This document shows, piece by piece, positions 1,291 to 48,814 of a stretch of 64,000 nt of DNA. Origin of the DNA: Clostridia bacterium (GTDB taxonomy: Bacteria > Bacillota > Clostridia > Christensenellales > Christensenellaceae). Position 1 is the first letter of the stretch; each line of letters begins with the position of its first letter. The notes below the pieces were generated by a model, which saw nothing but the letters and a program-made list of their open reading frames with translations, did no database searches and was not told where the DNA came from. The DNA is taken from contig JAFXKX010000005.1 in NCBI GenBank assembly GCA_017531505.1, forward strand, positions 1-64,000, in the 5' to 3' direction. The position numbers were made by a program, and so were the translations under genes.

Positions 1291-2826
1291 TTATTCCTCA
1301 CACAGATGGAATGCATTTGTTCTGCAATAAATTGTATTCAAATGGAATAACCACTCTGTATCCACCTCTGCCAGCGCCTGCTCTGTCAGACGATAACACC
1401 AGTTTCCCTCCGGCTTTCCCGGAATATTCATACGCGTATCTGCGCCGTATCCGCACAAATCCTGCATCGGGGCAATCACAATACACGCAGGCGACTGCCA
1501 CAAAGTACGCAGCATTGCTCTCACGCTGCCGCTCTGCGGGCCGCCTTTCTGCCATGCATCACCCGCTTCGGTATACCCACAATACGCCAATGCAAAAGCC
1601 CGCTCTTCCGGCACTGCTTCCCACAAATATCCGAGTGAAGTATTGTTGTCATGGGTGCCGGTATAGGCAACACAATTTTTCTCATACTGATGGGGGAGAT
1701 GTATACTTTCATGCGCAGTATCAAAGGCAAACTGCATAACACGCATACCCGGCAAACCTGTTTGTTTGAGGAATGCGCGTACTTTATCATCGATAATGCC
1801 CAGATCCTCTGCAATAATGGGGGCCTTGCCCAATCTTCTGCGGATCGCGCGGAACAACTTCATACCCGGGCCAGGCAGCCATTTGCCTTCCTTGGCACTC
1901 TCGCTGCCTGCAGGAATTCCCCAGAAGCTCTCAAATGCACGGAAATGATCTACACGAACACCGTGGCACAATTCCAACTGCCAACGCAGACGATCGATCC
2001 ACCAGCGGAATTTATCTGCCTCCATTGCCTGCCAGTCATACAGCGGGTTTCCCCATAACTGGCCTTCTTCGCTGAAATAGTCCGGCGGAGTACCTGCCAC
2101 CAGAGACGGCTGCGCCTGCTCATCCAGCAAAAACAATTCCCGATGCGCCCAGATATCGGCACTGTCCAGTGCTACATAGATAGGCATATCTCCGATCAAA
2201 GAGATCTCCATCTGCTCAAGCTCCGCCTTCAGCGCAGTCCACTGTTTATAAAACAGATACTGGATAAATACCCAGAAATCAACTTGCTCTTTGTTTGTCT
2301 TTCTATACTTTGCTACGGCCTTTGTGTCATGCTTGCTCAATGCTTCATCCGGCCATTCCCAAAAGGGAAGTTCTGCATACTGCGTACGCAGTGCCATAAA
2401 GCAGGCATATTCTTCTACCCACTTGTTTTTCTTTGCAAAGGCTGCTACCTCCATCAGCATTTGTGCATCTGCACGGGTATAAGCCTTTTCCAGCAGCGGC
2501 ATACGGGTTTCTTTCAGCCACGCATAGTCTGTGCTGTAGGGTTCACCGGTATATTTCGCCTGTTCTGCCTCTTGCTCGGTCAACAGCCCATCTGCTGCCA
2601 GACCGCGGGGATCGATATACCATACATTCCCCGCAAAGGCAGAGATACTGGTATAAGGAGAATTGCCGGCGCCCGGCTGCACCGTGGGCAGTATCTGCCA
2701 ACAGTGCATACCGGCCTGTTGCATACGGCGTGCAAAGGCAATTGCTTCCTCGCCCAATACACCGCACCCATAAGGGCCGGGCAAAGAAGAGATATTCAAC
2801 AATACCCCTGAAGTTCTTTCAAACAT
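1291..2826 (-). CDS. malQ: 4-alpha-glucanotransferase (amylomaltase)
   Basis: GH77 enzyme that transfers alpha-1,4-glucan segments between maltooligosaccharides and releases glucose; cytoplasmic. The protein has 511 residues, the normal bacterial MalQ length. Visible motifs are GDMPIYVALDSADIW near residue 212, the nucleophile in RVDHFR near 293, the general acid in IIAEDLG near 340 and GTHDNNT near 392. The N terminus GVLLNISSLPGPYGCG is typical of the family. It starts 3 nt after the phosphoglucomutase stop, so the two are translationally close. In this operon it would recycle the short glucans left by glycogen phosphorylase and the GH13 amylase. Confidence 0.96.
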   Translation of the reverse strand: MFERTSGVLLNISSLPGPYGCGVLGEEAIAFARRMQQAGMHCWQILPTVQPGAGNSPYTSISAFAGNVWYIDPRGLAADGLLTEQEAEQAKYTGEPYSTDYAWLKETRMPLLEKAYTRADAQMLMEVAAFAKKNKWVEEYACFMALRTQYAELPFWEWPDEALSKHDTKAVAKYRKTNKEQVDFWVFIQYLFYKQWTALKAELEQMEISLIGDMPIYVALDSADIWAHRELFLLDEQAQPSLVAGTPPDYFSEEGQLWGNPLYDWQAMEADKFRWWIDRLRWQLELCHGVRVDHFRAFESFWGIPAGSESAKEGKWLPGPGMKLFRAIRRRLGKAPIIAEDLGIIDDKVRAFLKQTGLPGMRVMQFAFDTAHESIHLPHQYEKNCVAYTGTHDNNTSLGYLWEAVPEERAFALAYCGYTEAGDAWQKGGPQSGSVRAMLRTLWQSPACIVIAPMQDLCGYGADTRMNIPGKPEGNWCYRLTEQALAEVDTEWLFHLNTIYCRTNAFHLCEE

Positions 2827-2829
2827 AAA

Positions 2830-4554
2830 TTATACTCCGATCAGCTGTTTGCCCGCATCTACCAGCATCTGCTTCTTCTGTTCGCAGGCTTCCTGTGTCT
2901 CGGCGCTGGCCATGATATACAGCTTAATTTTGGGTTCGGTACCGGAAGGACGCACGATCAAAGAAGAACCTTCTTCCAATTCATAGTACATTACATCAGA
3001 GGTAGGAAGACCGGTAGGCTCACTCTTACCGTCTGCCATATCGGTAATGGTGCCAGACAGATAATCTCTTACACGGCTGACCTTCAGACCTGCCAACTCT
3101 GCAATGCTCTCTTTACGCAGTTTTACGCCTACTGCCTTGATCTTCTCCAGTCCATCCAGACCGGGCATGGTGATAGATACGACCTGCTCACCAAACCAAC
3201 CGTAAGCTTCGTACAGATCCTGCATACCTTCATACAGGCTCTTACCCTGCGTACGATACCAACAAGCCATTTCACAAACCAGCATAGAAGCAACGATTGC
3301 ATCTTTATCGCGGGCATACGTCCCTGCCAAATAACCGTAGCTTTCTTCAAAACCAAACAAATAGGTATATTCACCTGTCTGCTCAAATTCTTTGATCTTT
3401 TCACCGATAAACTTAAAGCCGGTCAATACATCCATCAGCGTAACGCCCTGTTTTTCACAAACGGCTTTTGCCATATTGGTGGTAACAATGCTCTTGATCA
3501 CTGCGCTGTTATCTGCCAGCGTACCCAGTTCTCTGCGGCGACGGATCAGGTAATCCAGCAGCAATACGCCAACCTGATTACCGCTCAGCGTTACATACTG
3601 GCCATCCAGACGACGTACTACAATACCGCAGCGGTCTGCATCCGGGTCTGTACCGATAATCAAGTCGATATTCTGCTCCTGTGCCATACGGATCGCTTCG
3701 GTGAAGCCTTCTTTGTCTTCGGGATTCGGAGACTTTACGGTGGGGAAGTTGCCGTTGATTTCCATCTGGCTGGGTACAGTCAGCACGTGCTTCATACCCA
3801 TACGTTTCAACACCTCGGGTACCAGACGATAGCCTGCACCGTGGAAAGGCGTATAAATGATCTTGAACTGATCCGCATTCTGTGCAACTACTTCACTGCC
3901 GATAGACTGTTCCAGCACTTTTGCCAGATACTTGTCATCCATTTCGGTACTCAGCATCGTGACCCAACCGTCTGCCTTTGCCTGTTCCAGCGAACAAACT
4001 TTTACGTCTTCAAAGATGTCGATCTCTTTCAAGCGTGCAGAGATCTGTGCGGCATGATTGGGGGGCAGCTGTGCACCGTCTTCCCAGTATACTTTATAGC
4101 CATTGTATTCCTTGGGGTTATGGCTTGCGGTAATATTGATGCCGGCAATACAGCCCAGTTCACGCAATGCAAAAGACAATTCCGGAACGGGGCGCAATTC
4201 ATCAAACAAGAAGGACTTGATGCCGTTTGCAGCCAATACCCCTGCCACTTCCGCAGCAAATTCAGGGCTCATGTTACGGCTGTCGTATGCAATACATACC
4301 CCTCTGTCCTGACCGCCGCTGCCATTGATCAGATCTGCCAATCCCTGCGTCGTATAGCGGACGGTATAGATATTCATCATGTTCAGACCGGCACCCAGCA
4401 AACCACGCAGGCCTGCCGTACCAAAGTCCAGCATTTTAATAAAGCGATACTCTTTCTGCTCCTCATTGTTTGCCAATGCGTGCAGTTCTTCTTTGGTCTG
4501 TTCATCTACTACAGGGCTTGCCAGCCATGCCTCATATGCCTGCTGATACGTCAT
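2830..4554 (-). CDS. phosphoglucomutase / phosphomannomutase
   Basis: Alpha-D-phosphohexomutase that interconverts glucose 1-phosphate and glucose 6-phosphate, linking glycogen to glycolysis. About 574 residues, the size of the long PgcA/Pgm type. The phosphoserine loop TASHNPKEYNGYK lies near residue 143, the metal loop GTDPDADRCG near 305, the sugar-recognition FGFEESYGY near 400 and the phosphate-binding RPSGTEPKIKLY near 538. All four motifs are intact. Two tandem ATGs (4557 and 4554) follow GAGGA; the second is better spaced and is used here. Its place between the GH13 amylase and malQ fits glycogen turnover. Confidence 0.95.
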   Translation of the reverse strand: MTYQQAYEAWLASPVVDEQTKEELHALANNEEQKEYRFIKMLDFGTAGLRGLLGAGLNMMNIYTVRYTTQGLADLINGSGGQDRGVCIAYDSRNMSPEFAAEVAGVLAANGIKSFLFDELRPVPELSFALRELGCIAGINITASHNPKEYNGYKVYWEDGAQLPPNHAAQISARLKEIDIFEDVKVCSLEQAKADGWVTMLSTEMDDKYLAKVLEQSIGSEVVAQNADQFKIIYTPFHGAGYRLVPEVLKRMGMKHVLTVPSQMEINGNFPTVKSPNPEDKEGFTEAIRMAQEQNIDLIIGTDPDADRCGIVVRRLDGQYVTLSGNQVGVLLLDYLIRRRRELGTLADNSAVIKSIVTTNMAKAVCEKQGVTLMDVLTGFKFIGEKIKEFEQTGEYTYLFGFEESYGYLAGTYARDKDAIVASMLVCEMACWYRTQGKSLYEGMQDLYEAYGWFGEQVVSITMPGLDGLEKIKAVGVKLRKESIAELAGLKVSRVRDYLSGTITDMADGKSEPTGLPTSDVMYYELEEGSSLIVRPSGTEPKIKLYIMASAETQEACEQKKQMLVDAGKQLIGV

Positions 4555-32437: not shown

Positions 32438-32465
32438 AAAAAAACTCCCGAAAGGGAGTTTTTTT
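32438..32465 (+). terminator. bidirectional terminator
   Basis: CTCCC-GAAA-GGGAG stem flanked by seven A and seven T, between ychF and the convergent ECF operon. Confidence 0.9.
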
Positions 32466-33153
32466 ATGCTTTCAAATCGTATTTTTGGCGTATCCGCTGT
32501 AATTTACGGATAAGCGGCAATCCAAACATCCGTAGAAACACCGTGGTTGCAATGCCGTGTAGCAGATTCGCAAACACGCCGGTCAAATATACCGTCAATA
32601 CAGCCTCGATCCCCTCGCCTGCCTGCAAAAAGAAAAAGGAACTGCCTTCCACCAGCAAACCATATACAACAGCGGATATCACCAGACCGAATGCACATAG
32701 TTTCCACCGGGACGGTACTTGTTTTTCAAAAAACACGGCGCCGGATAACCAGCCCGACATTCCCAGTGCTAACATCTGAAAAGGTGTCCAAAGACCTTGC
32801 GAGAACAAAAAGTTGGAAAGCAATGCCGAGAGTGCCCCCACCAAAAAACCGCGGGCACTGCCAAAACATATCCCCGTCACAATGACGATGGCACAGGTGG
32901 GCTTGATCTGCGGCAGCATAAAGAATGCCGCCCTTCCTGCCACAGCCAACGCCGTCAGTACGGCTGTCAATACGATATCCCTTGCCTTGGGTTTGCTTCG
33001 TTCAAAAGATATCAGATACGGCAGCATAGCGCACAGTATCAGCAATACCCCTGCCAGCATATATTGCCTGCGGAACCAAATGATCCAGACCATCATTATC
33101 GCACCGGCGGGAAGTATCGATTGCCAAATTTTTTGTTTTTTCTTCACCGGCAT
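32464..33153 (-). CDS. ECF transporter S component (probable vitamin-binding subunit)
   Basis: Substrate-binding integral membrane protein of an energy-coupling-factor transporter, 229 residues with about six hydrophobic segments. The segment DIVLTAVLTALAVAGRAAFF and the later GLWTPFQMLALGMSGWLSG are typical of ECF S components. The ATG at 33153 shares one base with the ATPase stop (TGATG), which decides the start over an upstream in-frame ATG at 33201. It is last in the operon lipoprotein-EcfT-EcfA-S. The leader upstream points to cobalamin as substrate, of the CbrT type; this is an inference. Confidence 0.85.
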   Translation of the reverse strand: MPVKKKQKIWQSILPAGAIMMVWIIWFRRQYMLAGVLLILCAMLPYLISFERSKPKARDIVLTAVLTALAVAGRAAFFMLPQIKPTCAIVIVTGICFGSARGFLVGALSALLSNFLFSQGLWTPFQMLALGMSGWLSGAVFFEKQVPSRWKLCAFGLVISAVVYGLLVEGSSFFFLQAGEGIEAVLTVYLTGVFANLLHGIATTVFLRMFGLPLIRKLQRIRQKYDLKA

Positions 33154-34736
33154 CACCCCCGCAGCGCCAGCAGATCGCGGATCGTCACCGCCTGCGGGCA
33201 AATATTGCGTACCATACGGTTTACAGAAGTCGTGTAGAACATATGTTTTTCAAACAAAGTCCCGGCCGGTCCTTCCGCAGTCAATTCACCACGGAACAAC
33301 ATTCCGCAGCGGTCTGCGTACTCTGCACAGAATTCGATATCATGCGAAGCCATCAGGATACATTTCCCTTGTGCTTTTGCTTCCGCAAATATTTGTGCCA
33401 GATGTCGTTTGAAGGCCTGCTCCATACCTTTGGTCGGCTCGTCCAGCAGCAGCACGTCCGCGTCCAACAGCCATAGTTTTGCCATAGCCAAGCGCTGCTG
33501 TTCGCCGCCCGATATATCGTATGGATGTTGTATCAACACCTGTTCTAACTTCCATACTTTGATGATCTGCTGCAGTTTTTCCGTATCTGTTGTGATCTCT
33601 TCCAGTTCTTCCTGTACTGTTTCCTTACCGAACAATGTCTGTACATCCTGCGGCAGCATGGCGATCTTTATCCCTTTACGCTGTCTGATCTTGCCTGCAT
33701 AGGGTTTGCGGATGCCGCATAGCACCTGCAATAATGTGGACTTACCGGACCCGTTACCGCCAAGCAGTGCATACAATTCCCCTGTATGCAGCGTGATATC
33801 CAACTCCTGCAGCACATCCTGTCGGTTTTTCTCATAACGCATATATACGCGTTTTGCCTCAACCATTTTTTCGCCAACCGACTTTTTGTTGGACGCCGTC
33901 ATTTCTCCGGCCAATGAAAGGGTCTGCACCCATGCCCTGCCTTGCCGTACTGTCAAAGGATATTCCTCAAACCCCAATGCTGCGGCCAATCTTGCCGGGG
34001 TCGGCATAGAGTCAAACATCGGGTGCTGTACCTTTGCCAAACATTCTGCCACCTTTGCAGGTTCGCCATCACAGAAAACGCTGCCGCCATCCAATACGAT
34101 AACACGGTCTGCCTCCGGGAGCACTTGCTCCAGCCGATGTTCAGACAATACGATGGTCACCCCCAGATCACGGTTGATCTTGCGCAGAGTGAGCAAAAAA
34201 TTCTCCGCCGCAATCGGATCCAGCTGCGATAAAGGTTCATCCAACAGTAAAACATCCGGATGCAGCGCAAGGATAGCGGCCAGATTGAGCAGTTGTTTCT
34301 GTCCGCCGGATAATTCGGATACACTGCGGTCAAACCAATGCTGTATGCCAAAGTAGTTTGCCATCTCTGCCACACGCATACGGATCGTTTCTGTATGATA
34401 GCCCAGGTTTTCCAAACCGAAGGCCAGTTCCTGCCATACTTCTTCGGCCACTAGCTGATGTTCCGGTGTCTGCAGCAGAAAGCCTATTTTCTCAGCCTGC
34501 TCTTTTGCATTCAACTGACCGATGGGTTGTTCGTCCAGTTTGATCATTCTGCTTTGTGTACCTTTTGGAGTCAGGATCGGTTTCAGTTGACGGAGCAGCG
34601 TCGATTTTCCGCTGCCGCTGCTGCCGATCAGCACTACAAATTCTCCCTGCCGAATGTGCAGAGAAATATCCTTAAGAGCAGGTTGTTCCTGCCCTGCATA
34701 ATAAAAACTCAAATTTTCGATAGATATCTCTGCCAT
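33153..34736 (-). CDS. ECF transporter ATPase, two ABC domains fused (EcfA-EcfA')
   Basis: ATP-binding subunit driving the ECF transporter, 527 residues with two nucleotide-binding domains in one chain. Domain 1 has GSSGSGKS near residue 36, signature LSGGQKQL and Walker B VLLLDEPLSQLDP. Domain 2 has GGNGSGKST near 325, signature ISGGEQQRL and VLLLDEPTKGM. Most ECF systems use two separate ATPases, so this is a fusion. The ATG at 34736 (MAEISIENL) has AAGGG seven bases upstream and overlaps the EcfT gene by 28 nt. Confidence 0.93.
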   Translation of the reverse strand: MAEISIENLSFYYAGQEQPALKDISLHIRQGEFVVLIGSSGSGKSTLLRQLKPILTPKGTQSRMIKLDEQPIGQLNAKEQAEKIGFLLQTPEHQLVAEEVWQELAFGLENLGYHTETIRMRVAEMANYFGIQHWFDRSVSELSGGQKQLLNLAAILALHPDVLLLDEPLSQLDPIAAENFLLTLRKINRDLGVTIVLSEHRLEQVLPEADRVIVLDGGSVFCDGEPAKVAECLAKVQHPMFDSMPTPARLAAALGFEEYPLTVRQGRAWVQTLSLAGEMTASNKKSVGEKMVEAKRVYMRYEKNRQDVLQELDITLHTGELYALLGGNGSGKSTLLQVLCGIRKPYAGKIRQRKGIKIAMLPQDVQTLFGKETVQEELEEITTDTEKLQQIIKVWKLEQVLIQHPYDISGGEQQRLAMAKLWLLDADVLLLDEPTKGMEQAFKRHLAQIFAEAKAQGKCILMASHDIEFCAEYADRCGMLFRGELTAEGPAGTLFEKHMFYTTSVNRMVRNICPQAVTIRDLLALRG

Positions 34737-35599
34737 TTCCAAGCCCTTCTTATATCCATATACAACGGCATCGCGCACAACACCGTATATATCACATATC
34801 CTGCATAGCGTATCGGCATCGCCTCCGGGAAGCGGATCACCGGATCATACTGTACATTCCATGCCCCTGTAATCGCCAAACCTGCCAGCATCCCCACTAT
34901 CAATAGGATACACAATGCGCATATTATATCCTTTGCATGCCAGCGATATCGCCGATAACTGCTCCGCTTTGCCGCACCGTAACCACGCGCCCGCATGGAA
35001 TCTGCTGTTTGTATAGAGTTTTCCAACGCCCATGTCGTAAGAATGGATAATACCGTGCCTCCGTGCCGCATTTTCTGTCTGAACTTCTGTTCTGTTGACT
35101 TACCCAACATCCCCTGTCGGGCACGGATAATTTTTGCAGTTTGTGCTGTATAAGTCGGCACAAACCGCAGCGCCATTGTCAATACCAACGACAGGGCAGG
35201 CATACATTGTGACCCCAGATACAACAGTTTGTCCTGCGGCAATACGATGCCGAAGCAATATAACCACAAGGTCGCCGCGCCGAACATACCGCCCAGTACC
35301 GCGCCTTGGCACAACGCCTCCAACGTCACGCGATTGCCTCCCGGCAACCGGAACAGCGGCGTCACCCCATAATGATGAAACCAACCGTTTAGCACAACAG
35401 ACAGCAAGCACACCGGCAGCGCTACACCCATAAAAAAGCGTATCCCAACTTTACCGCGCAGCAAGACAGTATATCCTGCCGCGCAGCAAAATGAGATTAT
35501 CAAATATATGGGGTGTCTGCACACCATAGTACAACCCAGTACTGCCATAAAGTACAGCAGACATACGCCCGGGTGCATTGTCTCAAATCGTTGCTTCAT
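34709..35599 (-). CDS. ecfT: ECF transporter transmembrane subunit EcfT
   Basis: Membrane coupling subunit of 296 residues with about five hydrophobic segments. Its cytoplasmic part has the two Ala-Arg signatures of EcfT, here IIRARQG and DSMRARGYGAA, which contact the ATPases. It begins 13 nt after the lipoprotein stop with only a weak ribosome-binding site, and its 3' end overlaps the ATPase start. Together with the ATPase and S component it forms a complete group-I-like transporter. Confidence 0.92.
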   Translation of the reverse strand: MKQRFETMHPGVCLLYFMAVLGCTMVCRHPIYLIISFCCAAGYTVLLRGKVGIRFFMGVALPVCLLSVVLNGWFHHYGVTPLFRLPGGNRVTLEALCQGAVLGGMFGAATLWLYCFGIVLPQDKLLYLGSQCMPALSLVLTMALRFVPTYTAQTAKIIRARQGMLGKSTEQKFRQKMRHGGTVLSILTTWALENSIQTADSMRARGYGAAKRSSYRRYRWHAKDIICALCILLIVGMLAGLAITGAWNVQYDPVIRFPEAMPIRYAGYVIYTVLCAMPLYMDIRRAWKWQRYLSKI

Positions 35600-35612: not shown

Positions 35613-36092
35613 TTACTGATCGATCTCATAGTCACAGATAAATATCCAGCTGATCAGATCGCCTTCTGCCAGTTCATAGACTTCACTGCCTACATCAGCA
35701 TATTCGCCATTGACCTTAAACATCCAACCGGACATTTCTCCGCAATCGCCACCATAAATCTGACCAATGCCCTTAACATACTTTCCCCAAGAGCCATCTT
35801 CTGCATCCAGATGGATATCCTGCTCATCACATATTTCCTCTAACAAGTCAAATGCTGTATCGCCTTGCTCAACCGTCACTTCTGTTTCGGCCAAGATCAT
35901 ACCATCCTGCGGTACAAACTCCACCTTGGATTCCAGCAGATCTTCCTCATGATCCCAGATGTAACCACAATCGATCTCGACACTGCACTGGATACCCGGC
36001 TGCTGCTTTTTACAGGCAACCATCAGGCTCAACACCATACATACTGCCAGCAATACCGGCAGAGCGCGTTTGCAAACATTGTTCTTCATCAT
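35613..36092 (-). CDS. DUF4430 (transcobalamin-like) lipoprotein
   Basis: 159-residue exported protein with a signal peptide and an SLMVAC lipobox, so the cysteine near residue 24 would be lipidated. The mature part matches DUF4430, a domain also found at the C terminus of animal transcobalamin, with the typical SGWMFKVNGEY and EGDLISWIF strands. It is probably a surface binder that hands a vitamin to the ECF transporter. Tandem ATGs at 36092 and 36089 follow AGGAGG; the first, at 6 nt spacing, is taken. It is the first gene after the riboswitch-like leader. Confidence 0.85.
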   Translation of the reverse strand: MMKNNVCKRALPVLLAVCMVLSLMVACKKQQPGIQCSVEIDCGYIWDHEEDLLESKVEFVPQDGMILAETEVTVEQGDTAFDLLEEICDEQDIHLDAEDGSWGKYVKGIGQIYGGDCGEMSGWMFKVNGEYADVGSEVYELAEGDLISWIFICDYEIDQ

Positions 36093-36122
36093 AAGTAACC
36101 TCCTCTCCACAGACAGCAATAA

Positions 36123-36150
36123 ACCCTTGCCGCATATATACAGCAAGGGT
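36123..36150 (-). terminator. leader terminator of the ECF operon (riboswitch expression platform)
   Basis: Minus-strand ACCCTTGC / GCAAGGGT stem, then TTTATT, 31 nt upstream of the lipoprotein start. The base segment TATGCGGC inside it (36129-36136) is exactly complementary to GCCGCATA at 36178-36185, the 3' arm of the aptamer's last hairpin, so the two structures exclude each other. Confidence 0.6.
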
Positions 36151-36177
36151 CAATATACAAAAATATTTGTATCTATC

Positions 36178-36284
36178 TATGCGGCCCCTGAAGCATAATT
36201 GATGTTCGCAGAGGAAAAGACCCGACTATAACGGTAGCAAGGACGCTGCTGCGGAGTCTCACCGCATTCCATTCATTCTGCGAA
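36178..36284 (-). ncRNA. class-II-type (AdoCbl-variant) cobalamin riboswitch
   Basis: On the minus strand TTCGCAGA (36277-36284) pairs perfectly with TCTGCGAA (36205-36212). Inside lie GGAA/TTCC, then three short hairpins: GCGG/CCGC (36262-36265 with 36251-36254), AGCA/TGCT and CCG/CGG around TTATAGT. This nested core matches the P2-P6 plan of class-II cobalamin riboswitches, and GCGGTGAGACTCCGCAGC resembles the conserved GGTGAAAATCC block. A final hairpin TATGC/GCATA (36178-36197) has a loop with AGGG that can pair with TCCT in the second hairpin loop, the expected kissing interaction. Ligand binding is inferred from structure and context. Confidence 0.7.
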
Positions 36285-36301
36285 ATATTCATTTCGTTTT
36301 C

Positions 36302-36330
36302 AATATACCACCTTTTGTATAAATAGACAA
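36302..36330 (-). promoter_or_regulatory. promoter of the ECF operon leader
   Basis: Minus-strand TTGTCT (36325-36330) and TATATT (36302-36307), spacer 17 nt, about 10-15 nt upstream of the riboswitch 5' arm. Confidence 0.75.
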
Positions 36331-36363: not shown

Positions 36364-38205
36364 TCATATATCCATCTTCATACGTAATGTCCGCATCGCA
36401 TTGAGGATCGCAATTACCATAACGCCAACATCCGCAAAGATTGCCAGGATCATATTGGACCAACCAATTGCACTCAGAATCAATACTCCGATCTTAATCA
36501 CCAGCGCAACCGTAATGTTCTGTTTCACTATACGGCTGACCTTACGGCTGATAGCGATGGCAGCCGGCAATTTGCGCAGATCATCGCCCATGATCACCAT
36601 ATCCGCTGCCTCAATGGCGGCATCTTTGCCAATGGTGCCCATTGCAATACCCACATCTGCGCGGGTCAGCACCGGTGCATCGTTAATACCGTCTCCTACA
36701 AAGGCCATTTTTCCTTGGGTCTGGTCCATCAGTTTTTCTACCTGATCCACCTTATCACCGGGCAACAATTCTCCCTTTGCCAGGATCCCCAGACTGTCTG
36801 CCACTTCGTTTACCGCAGCCTGCGTATCTCCTGACAACATGATGATATCCGTGATCCCCAGCTGTTTCAGCCGATCGGTCGCCTGCTTTGCCTCCTGCCG
36901 CAATTGATCTTTTACAATCAGCCTGCCGGCATAAACTCCGTCTATAGCAATGTACACAGCGCTGCCCGCGCCGGTATACGTTTCACATACGGCCCCTTCC
37001 TGCTCCATCAGGCTGATATTGCCTACGGCTATGCGCTGTCCGTTCAGAACTGCCAACATACCCTTGCCCGCAACCTCTTCAGAATGCGCAGGGTGCTCCA
37101 GTTCTTTTGCATACGCCTGCTTGATGGCGATTGCAATCGGATGGTCGGAGTACCATTCTGCCAGCGCCGTATATTCCAATAACGTTTGCTCCGGCAATTG
37201 TACCGATTGGATTTCCGTTACTTGCAGTTGTCCTTTGGTCAGCGTACCTGTTTTATCCATTGCCACAGCAGTAAGTTGAGATAACGCATCAATGCTCTGA
37301 CTGCCCTTGATCAGTATCCCGTTGCGGGATGCACAGCCAATACCGCCAAAATAACTGAGCGGTACCGAAATGACCAATGCGCACGGACAAGATACGACCA
37401 AAAACATCAGGGCACGACGGATCCATTCCATTGCATCGGCCCCCGGGATCAGCAAACCCGGGATCGCCGCCAGCAATGCCGCACAGATTACAACAATCGG
37501 CGTATAGTATCTGGAAAACTTGGTTATAAAGCTTTCTGCAGGTGCCTTTTTTCCCCCGATATCCTCTATCATATTCAGTATCTTGGTAGCAGTTGATTCT
37601 GAAAATGCTTTGGTAACCTGTATTTCCAAAGGTACGCTGGTGTTGACGCTGCCGCTAAGCACTGTACTGCCCGGCCCCACCTGCTGCGGGACAGATTCTC
37701 CGGTCAGCGCAGCGGTATCCACATAGGAATTGCCCTCTGTTACGATACCGTCCAGCGGCACTCTCTCTCCGGGTTTTACCAGGATCATATCCCCTATTGC
37801 AACTTGGATGGGATGCACTTGTATCAACTGACCATCCTGTATGATGTTGGCAGTATCCGGACGCAATTCCATCAGATCCGAAATTGCTTTACGGGATTTT
37901 CCTACTGCCATACCCTGAAACAGTTCGCCGATCTGGAACAACAGCATTACCAATACTGCTTCAAAATACTCAGCAATCAAAAATGCGCCGATGGTAGCAA
38001 TGGTCATTAACAAGTTTTCGCCAAATGCCTGCCCTGTAAACAGTTCACGAAATGCCTCATATACGATTTCTGCGCCCACTATCAAATATGCCGATATAAA
38101 TATCGCCAATTTCAGCGGCCGTGCCAACGGCAATACCATTCCCGCAATCAACAGTATCGCAGAAATACCGATCTGCCAAAGCGTTTTTCTTTGAGTGCGG
38201 TTCAT
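36364..38205 (-). CDS. heavy-metal P1B-type ATPase (Cd/Zn/Co efflux type)
   Basis: Metal-exporting membrane ATPase, 613 residues. The metal channel motif SCPCALVISVPLS lies near residue 270. The phosphorylation site DKTGTLTKG is near 316, followed by the nucleotide-domain HP motif (YSDHPIAIAI) and hinge GDGINDAPVLT. The CPC motif plus a proline-serine follow-up fits ZntA/CadA-type Zn/Cd/Co pumps. It lacks the usual fused N-terminal metal-binding domain, which is encoded by the separate gene just upstream. It is third in an operon after the repressor and the HMA protein, 4 nt after the HMA gene. Confidence 0.93.
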   Translation of the reverse strand: MNRTQRKTLWQIGISAILLIAGMVLPLARPLKLAIFISAYLIVGAEIVYEAFRELFTGQAFGENLLMTIATIGAFLIAEYFEAVLVMLLFQIGELFQGMAVGKSRKAISDLMELRPDTANIIQDGQLIQVHPIQVAIGDMILVKPGERVPLDGIVTEGNSYVDTAALTGESVPQQVGPGSTVLSGSVNTSVPLEIQVTKAFSESTATKILNMIEDIGGKKAPAESFITKFSRYYTPIVVICAALLAAIPGLLIPGADAMEWIRRALMFLVVSCPCALVISVPLSYFGGIGCASRNGILIKGSQSIDALSQLTAVAMDKTGTLTKGQLQVTEIQSVQLPEQTLLEYTALAEWYSDHPIAIAIKQAYAKELEHPAHSEEVAGKGMLAVLNGQRIAVGNISLMEQEGAVCETYTGAGSAVYIAIDGVYAGRLIVKDQLRQEAKQATDRLKQLGITDIIMLSGDTQAAVNEVADSLGILAKGELLPGDKVDQVEKLMDQTQGKMAFVGDGINDAPVLTRADVGIAMGTIGKDAAIEAADMVIMGDDLRKLPAAIAISRKVSRIVKQNITVALVIKIGVLILSAIGWSNMILAIFADVGVMVIAILNAMRTLRMKMDI

Positions 38206-38209
38206 ATAC

Positions 38210-38428
38210 TCAGCCCAACACCGTACAATCCGGCTCTATTTTTGCAACGATCGCCTTTACTTGTTCAGTCAGACTATCTGCATATGCATCTTCAATATCG
38301 ATCACCAAACGCTGTGTCATGGTGTTGAGTTCTGCCATCGTGACACCTTTCAGTTTTGCAATTTTCGTCTGGATCTTTTTCCCACAGTGTGCACAGCACA
38401 GATCTTTTACAATATATTCTTTTCTCAT
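38210..38428 (-). CDS. stand-alone HMA metal-binding protein
   Basis: 72-residue ferredoxin-like heavy-metal-associated domain with a CAHC (CxxC) motif at residues about 12-15 (VKDLCCAHCGKKI). An extra cysteine precedes it. In related pumps this domain is fused to the ATPase N terminus; here it is a separate chain, probably delivering or sensing metal for the following ATPase. The repressor stop lies 3 nt upstream and the ATPase start 4 nt downstream, so all three are tightly coupled. Confidence 0.88.
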   Translation of the reverse strand: MRKEYIVKDLCCAHCGKKIQTKIAKLKGVTMAELNTMTQRLVIDIEDAYADSLTEQVKAIVAKIEPDCTVLG

Positions 38429-38431
38429 GAT

Positions 38432-38788
38432 TTATTCCTCCACATGCTCCATACCTTGATTTATAATTCTGCGTACATGATCATCCGCCAATGAATACAA
38501 AATGATTTTGCCGTCGCGTCTGTATTTGACCAGATGGCTCTGCTTTAATACGCGCAGCTGATGAGAGATCGCACTTTGTGTCATATTCAGCAGTTGGGCA
38601 ATATCGCATACACAAAGTTCGCTTTCAAACAGAGCATACAATATTTTAATACGCGTCGAATCACCAAACACCTTGAATAGTTCTGCCAGGTCGTACAACA
38701 GTTCTTCTTCGGGCATTCTTTCCCGTACCATCTCCACTACCTCTTCGTGAGCATGGATAAAACTGCATACCTCAATATGATCAGACAT
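38432..38788 (-). CDS. ArsR/SmtB family metal-sensing repressor (CadC/CzrA-like)
   Basis: 118-residue winged-helix repressor. The helix-turn-helix contains ELCVCDIAQLLNMTQSAISHQLRVLK: the ELCVCD alpha3 motif with two cysteines, as in CadC, is present. Cysteine 8 (EVCSFIH) in the N terminus could complete a Cd/Pb/Zn site. The C-terminal DDHVRRIINQGMEH has the alpha5 Asp/His layout of the SmtB/CzrA zinc site, so both sensing sites look plausible. It heads the efflux operon, with a perfect palindrome over its own promoter. A GAGGAGG precedes the ATG. Confidence 0.93.
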   Translation of the reverse strand: MSDHIEVCSFIHAHEEVVEMVRERMPEEELLYDLAELFKVFGDSTRIKILYALFESELCVCDIAQLLNMTQSAISHQLRVLKQSHLVKYRRDGKIILYSLADDHVRRIINQGMEHVEE

Positions 38789-48532: not shown

Positions 48533-48814
48533 AAATAAAAAAACTCCTGCCCTATCATAGGACAAGAGTTACTTGCGGTGCCACCTATGTTCGATTCTTC
48601 TCTTACTCAATCGGGAAAAATCGCCCTCTGCCATGTACCATCATACATGCGCCGCTGTAACGCGCAGCCCGCGTCCTGCTTCGGCCGGCAATGCCGCCTT
48701 CCAGGCCCTCATGAGTCCATTCACAAACCGTCTGTTGCTGCACTTCCACCACCATCAGCTCTCTATAAACCGGTACTGATTTGCTACTCTTCTCAATCAA
48801 TGGTTTTTCGTTGG
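48533..48814 (-). ncRNA. T-box leader, specifier UGG (tryptophan)
   Basis: On the minus strand a Stem I region starts near 48812, with the AGAGAGCTGATGG conserved block. GAA-UGG-AC places the specifier UGG at 48717-48719, which pairs with the tRNA-Trp anticodon CCA. The T-box itself AGGTGGCACCGC lies at 48575-48586, and its UGGC matches a G discriminator as in bacterial tRNA-Trp. A terminator hairpin AACTC...GAGTT with T7 follows at 48533-48570. Uncharged tRNA-Trp should thus allow transcription of the transporter. Confidence 0.92.

Follow-up and report, generated by a model that had tools for sequence, protein, structure and literature searches.

Cobalamin riboswitches form a superfamily in which the kissing loop is established as the sensor of the ligand state, and in the study concerned 37 of 38 functional riboswitches had a predicted terminator (PMC9600662). 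In a study on the ppe2 riboswitch of Mycobacterium tuberculosis, class IIb is described by the motifs GGAA in J3/4 and UCU in J6/3 and as selective for adenosylcobalamin (AdoCbl) (PMC11260477). The consensus of the Rfam family RF01482 (AdoCbl), which we take to be equivalent to class IIb, has UGGAA in J3/4 and GUCUUU in J6/3, and the J6/3 consensus of RF01689 (AdoCbl-II, formerly AdoCbl-variant), a family of the class IIa type, is AGCG. Regarding uptake, ECF-CbrT from Lactobacillus delbrueckii is a proven vitamin B12 transporter (PMC5997447), and the vertebrate transcobalamins, too, have DUF4430 as their C-terminal domain (PMC4350170).

In the 64,000 nucleotides analysed here (the window), from an uncultured clostridium, a leader on the minus strand, at 36330-36099, resembles each of these RNAs in part. 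The sequence argues for a compact cobalamin riboswitch resembling class IIb, which would terminate transcription and so switch off an operon for B12 uptake, and we assign this reading a probability of roughly 0.87. As a switch, it belongs to a familiar type. It shares with RF01482 the two junction sequences, the CC loop of L5, the position of P13 directly after P1 and the terminator platform, but P6 is here a stem of three pairs with a loop of 6-7 bases, whereas RF01482 has a longer arm. With RF01689 it has the overall size and the short P6 in common, but not the J6/3 sequence. The class I riboswitches (RF00174) contain the same four-way junction core, L5-L13 kissing and terminator switching, but the P6 extension is missing from the window RNA. 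The class IIb ppe2 riboswitch likewise has a small aptamer, a kissing loop and the GGAA of J3/4, but its J6/3 lacks UCU and its target is translation (PMC11260477).

Organization of the leader

The leader consists, from 5' to 3' on the minus strand, of the promoter, the 5' strand of P1, the four-way junction of the aptamer, the 3' strand of P1, P13, a small AU hairpin, the terminator and the Shine-Dalgarno sequence, followed by the ATG at 36092 (Table 1). All sequences quoted in the first-pass annotation of this DNA were located on the minus strand where it had placed them, including the 17-nt-spaced promoter and the outer helix, which corresponds to P1. A promoter of the form TTG..-17-TAT..T is found at the same position in all four members of the genus. 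The region just upstream (window 36364-38788, minus strand) encodes a heavy-metal P-type ATPase and an ArsR-type regulator, and this metal-gene region ends in a terminator-like hairpin at 36361-36333. Elsewhere in the window, at 48555-48809 on the minus strand, there is a T-box leader (RF00230) which at 101.5 bits is over the curated cut-off.

Table 1. Features of the riboswitch leader and the downstream operon in the window.
Feature	Position	Strand	Remarks
Promoter TTGTCT-N17-TATATT	36302..36330	-	Extended -10, TGG before TATATT
Cobalamin aptamer, P4/P5/P6 four-way junction	36205..36284	-	RF01689 match 36283-36206 and covariation
P1, TTCGCAGA / TCTGCGAA	36284-36277 / 36212-36205	-	Paired strands
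P3, GAA / UUC	36274-36272 / 36216-36214	-	Supported by relatives
J3/4 motif GGAA	36267..36270	-	Invariant in all eight distinct homologs
J6/3 motif UCU (within GUCUU)	36218..36220	-	Invariant in all eight homologs
P13 hairpin UAUGC-UUCAGGGGCC-GCAUA	36178..36197	-	All five pairs show compensatory changes
Shared-type antiterminator CAGGGG / CCCUUG	36144..36190 (36190-36185 / 36149-36144)	-	L13 with terminator 5' arm; partial-transcript folds
Second antiterminator GCCGCAUA / UAUGCGGC	36129..36185 (36185-36178 / 36136-36129)	-	Exact 8-base complement (DNA GCCGCATA/TATGCGGC)
Terminator hairpin ACCCUUGCUGUAUAUAUGCGGCAAGGGU, then UUAUUGCU	36123..36150	-	12 pairs, -18.3 kcal/mol
Shine-Dalgarno GGAGAGGAGG	36099..36108	-	3' of terminator
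Lipoprotein with DUF4430 domain (PF14478)	35613..36092	-	E 1e-14; same gene after riboswitch in three other genus species
ECF transporter T component (CbiQ/EcfT family)	34709..35599	-	
ECF double ATPase, fused	33153..34778	-	
ECF S component, CbrT-like, predicted B12-binding subunit	32464..33201	-	Only PDB match 6fnp_A

Rfam matches and fold of the aptamer

At curated cut-offs, no Rfam family was reported at the leader, and none reaches its cut-off there. When an E-value threshold was used instead, the best match of the aptamer was RF01689, matched over its full length with 35.1 bits (cut-off 36.5) and an E-value of 1.1e-6, and this was the only such match in the genome. The covariance search proposed by the first-pass annotation has thus given a significant match, albeit one under the cut-off, which is a detection threshold and not a structural criterion. 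The structural features of class II in general are present: the P3-P6 junction is compact and without the large P6 extension (P8-P12), and L5 and L13 are complementary. A search of the same genome with the class I model, RF00174, produced only noise (14.9 bits, and 11.1 bits at the leader; cut-off 31.5).

The fold of the leader beats all but one of 200 shuffled sequences (z -2.5). Because of the E-value of the RF01689 match, its being the sole one in the genome, the shuffle score and the compensatory changes described below, the leader structure is not a product of chance, and the match is below threshold but real. The first-pass annotation had read the leader of the ECF operon as a class II cobalamin riboswitch that combines a kissing loop with a terminator, and had named the lack of a cobalamin model match and of helix conservation as grounds for rejecting this; a cobalamin model does match, the helices are kept in relatives, and both observations support its reading.

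Conservation and covariation in relatives

A DNA search identified the element in three of the six other genomes of the genus, each time before a DUF4430 gene. In one of them (G004) an EcfT gene follows, and another (G002) has the same upstream P-type ATPase as the window and an EcfT match on another contig. When 85,000 species genomes were scanned with a pattern, seven contigs were recovered, which represent the three genus members and four diverged loci. In L080 and L084 the riboswitch precedes genes for BtuF-like binding proteins, in L084 together with a FecCD permease, and in L082 it precedes a gene for thiamine pyrophosphokinase, which is followed by a DUF4430 gene. L082 also contains, within 2290-3700, a TPP riboswitch on the opposite strand about 1 kb upstream of the cobalamin riboswitch. 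In L085 (5217-5755, minus strand) the riboswitch, here too with a terminator, lies a long way upstream of thrS, and a weak T-box match of 53.6 bits, below threshold, separates the two; this is a tandem or orphan arrangement. With model R2, a search of 391 genomes from the class added only two further genomes with weak matches, a scan of other DUF4430 loci with the Rfam class II models recovered only the known G002 locus, as RF01482 below cut-off, and plasmid records contained no match to the element. One other place in the genome (L048) matches over 23 bases of DNA; it falls inside an ABC transporter gene and was dismissed as chance.

Double-sided compensatory changes were observed at 15 of the 27 pairs in the eight distinct homologs, compared with 4-7 when the pairing was slid, and 93% of the cells pair, compared with 37-51%, in an alignment that was fitted to, and is thereby biased towards, the model and whose eight loci are not independent. 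The number of double-changed cells was 43 versus 15.6 in shuffles, and none of 500 shuffles reached the covariation score. A MAFFT alignment of the four genus sequences gives the same picture, with nine pairs that show double-sided changes. The helices P1, P3, P5 and P13 vary with compensation, while P4 and P6 are invariant and therefore uninformative on covariation. A score just below the Rfam cut-off could also be expected of a decayed, functionless relic of a riboswitch, but with all core motifs intact, compensatory changes in the helices and a conserved promoter and gene context, we consider decay extremely improbable.

Junction motifs and class assignment

All eight loci keep UGGAA where P3 joins P4 and GUCUU where P6 joins P3, and the leader thus has both GGAA in J3/4 and UCU in J6/3, the class IIb signature as given in PMC11260477. 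The first-pass annotation had paired GGAA with TTCC. Such a helix can be drawn, but in the relatives GGAA is kept and the other side varies; they support the GAA/UUC pairing of P3 instead and leave GGAA as an invariant J3/4 motif that faces UCU. Its assignment of the aptamer to the AdoCbl-variant family did not hold either, since J6/3 is GUCUU rather than AGCG and the junctions match RF01482 and class IIb. An aptamer of the class IIa type (RF01689-like) that senses methyl- or hydroxocobalamin instead of AdoCbl would agree with the short P6 and with RF01689 being the top-scoring Rfam family. However, GUCUU replaces AGCG in eight of eight loci, and UGGAA and GUCUUU are the RF01482 consensus as well as the signature of class IIb in PMC11260477, which makes class IIa improbable. 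On these motifs, the aptamer is most likely a compact class II cobalamin riboswitch of class IIb.

The RF01482 scores of the relatives are 35.6-39.2 bits and stay below 50 bits because P6 is short. By its predicted fold, the window RNA joins RF01482-type junctions to a short P6, and therefore probably neither model reaches its cut-off. This places a group of intact class IIb-like riboswitches just below the Rfam cut-offs. A more far-reaching idea, which we consider doubtful, is that the eight loci constitute a separate short-P6 subtype of class IIb that is missed by current models, in which L13 would be both kissing loop and antiterminator strand and which may prefer other corrinoids than the known class IIb members do.

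Kissing loop, terminator and antiterminators

The P13 strands TATGC (36197-36193) and GCATA (36182-36178) flank the loop TTCAGGGGCC, in which AGGG occupies 36189-36186. As proposed in the first-pass annotation, AGGG is complementary to UCCU (TCCT in DNA) in L5, the loop of P5 and the middle hairpin. Both kissing sequences are invariant within the genus, and the loops are also unchanged in the wider set of eight loci. This invariance is consistent with a kissing interaction and is not independent proof of it.

The predicted terminator at 36150-36123 was present as annotated, with the arms ACCCTTGC...GCAAGGGT. Its U tract is weak (UUUAUU), and a consensus terminator scan does not list the hairpin. 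Terminator hairpins are nevertheless found at all eight loci, and most relatives have 5-7 consecutive U. The weak U tract could point to a translational or mixed switch, in which a downstream hairpin or an alternative fold governs ribosome access rather than termination, and, by eye, AGAGG of the Shine-Dalgarno sequence can pair with CCTCT in the 3' strand of P1. However, the Shine-Dalgarno sequence lies outside the hairpin and the relatives have terminators, mostly with the longer U tracts, so that control of ribosome access seems very unlikely here. The preferred terminating OFF switch is represented by a terminator and a mutually exclusive antiterminator, both of which are present in the sequence and in the folds of partial transcripts.

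The either/or switch in the first-pass annotation consisted of the pairing between GCCGCATA and TATGCGGC, which is indeed an exact 8-base complement. It was seen in this species alone, where it uses the loop and the 3' arm of the terminator, and is not the antiterminator shared by the relatives. In the partial-transcript folds of the four genus members, the 5' arm of the terminator is paired to L13 and the 3' strand of P13 as long as the terminator's 3' arm has not been made; after that, the minimum consists of the terminator plus P13 (in G004, a shifted hairpin). In the window, CAGGGG/CCCUUG forms first and GCCGCAUA/UAUGCGGC takes over when the latter strand emerges, with nearly equal energies (-16.4 kcal/mol for GCCGCAUA/UAUGCGGC versus -16.1 for CAGGGG/CCCUUG in the transcript ending at 36129). 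The two pairings cross and share G36185, and are therefore alternatives. That GCCGCATA/TATGCGGC should be the only antiterminator is rather unlikely: it is an exact complement and the lowest-energy state of the partial transcript that ends just after UAUGCGGC, but CAGGGG/CCCUUG is almost as stable, is able to form earlier and is the type carried by the relatives.

At all eight loci the 5' arm of the terminator bears complements of L13 of the CCCUU, GCCUU or GCCU type, and the switch pairing common to these loci is, as read from their sequences, that between L13 plus the 3' side of P13 and this arm. At least six consecutive pairs are formed at six of the eight loci (the window and five of the other seven) versus 14 of 136 control terminators, where the controls come from the same sequences with arms found automatically, the eight real arms were picked visually and belong to loci that are not independent. 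This match is an indication in favour of a shared antiterminator. Swapping the L13/P13 strands and the terminators among species revealed no significant antiterminator specificity (3641 of 40320 permutations were as good), because L13 itself hardly varies.

We infer the ligand, the order of folding and termination itself as follows. Judging from the promoter, RNA polymerase would start near 36296. As long as no ligand is bound, L13 and the 3' strand of P13 (CAGGGGCCGCAUA) would, on emerging, pair with CCCUUG in the 5' arm of the terminator, in this species with UAUGCGGC as an alternative partner; the terminator could then not close, and DUF4430-ecfT-ecfA-cbrT would be transcribed. Binding of adenosylcobalamin in the four-way junction would let UCCU in L5 kiss AGGG in L13, thereby fixing P13 and withdrawing L13 from the antiterminator. 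The terminator would then form, and transcription would stop near 36120, leaving the uptake operon off.

The downstream operon

The ECF operon noted behind the leader in the first-pass annotation is present and contains genes for a DUF4430 lipoprotein, EcfT, a double ATPase and an S component. The only match of the S component among solved structures is CbrT of ECF-CbrT (PDB 6FNP, E 2.1e-8), and the operon likely encodes a vitamin B12 importer. For both the S component and EcfT, the closest sequences are those of ECF-CbrT (PMC5997447), but the operon differs in that a T component of its own, a DUF4430 lipoprotein and a fused double ATPase are encoded together. In the genome, which is 80% complete, NrdJ and a PduO-type adenosyltransferase were not found, and there is one B12-binding radical-SAM-like protein.

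Through the riboswitch, B12 control is linked to the DUF4430 lipoprotein and to an ECF transporter that is complete and stand-alone, which supports their assignment to B12 uptake. A role of the DUF4430 lipoprotein as a surface B12-binding partner of ECF/ABC importers is suggested. The added value is modest and consists of the DUF4430 link and a riboswitch group beneath present detection limits. In several other genera (L057, L063, L065 and L072), DUF4430 lipoprotein genes are located near class I cobalamin riboswitches.
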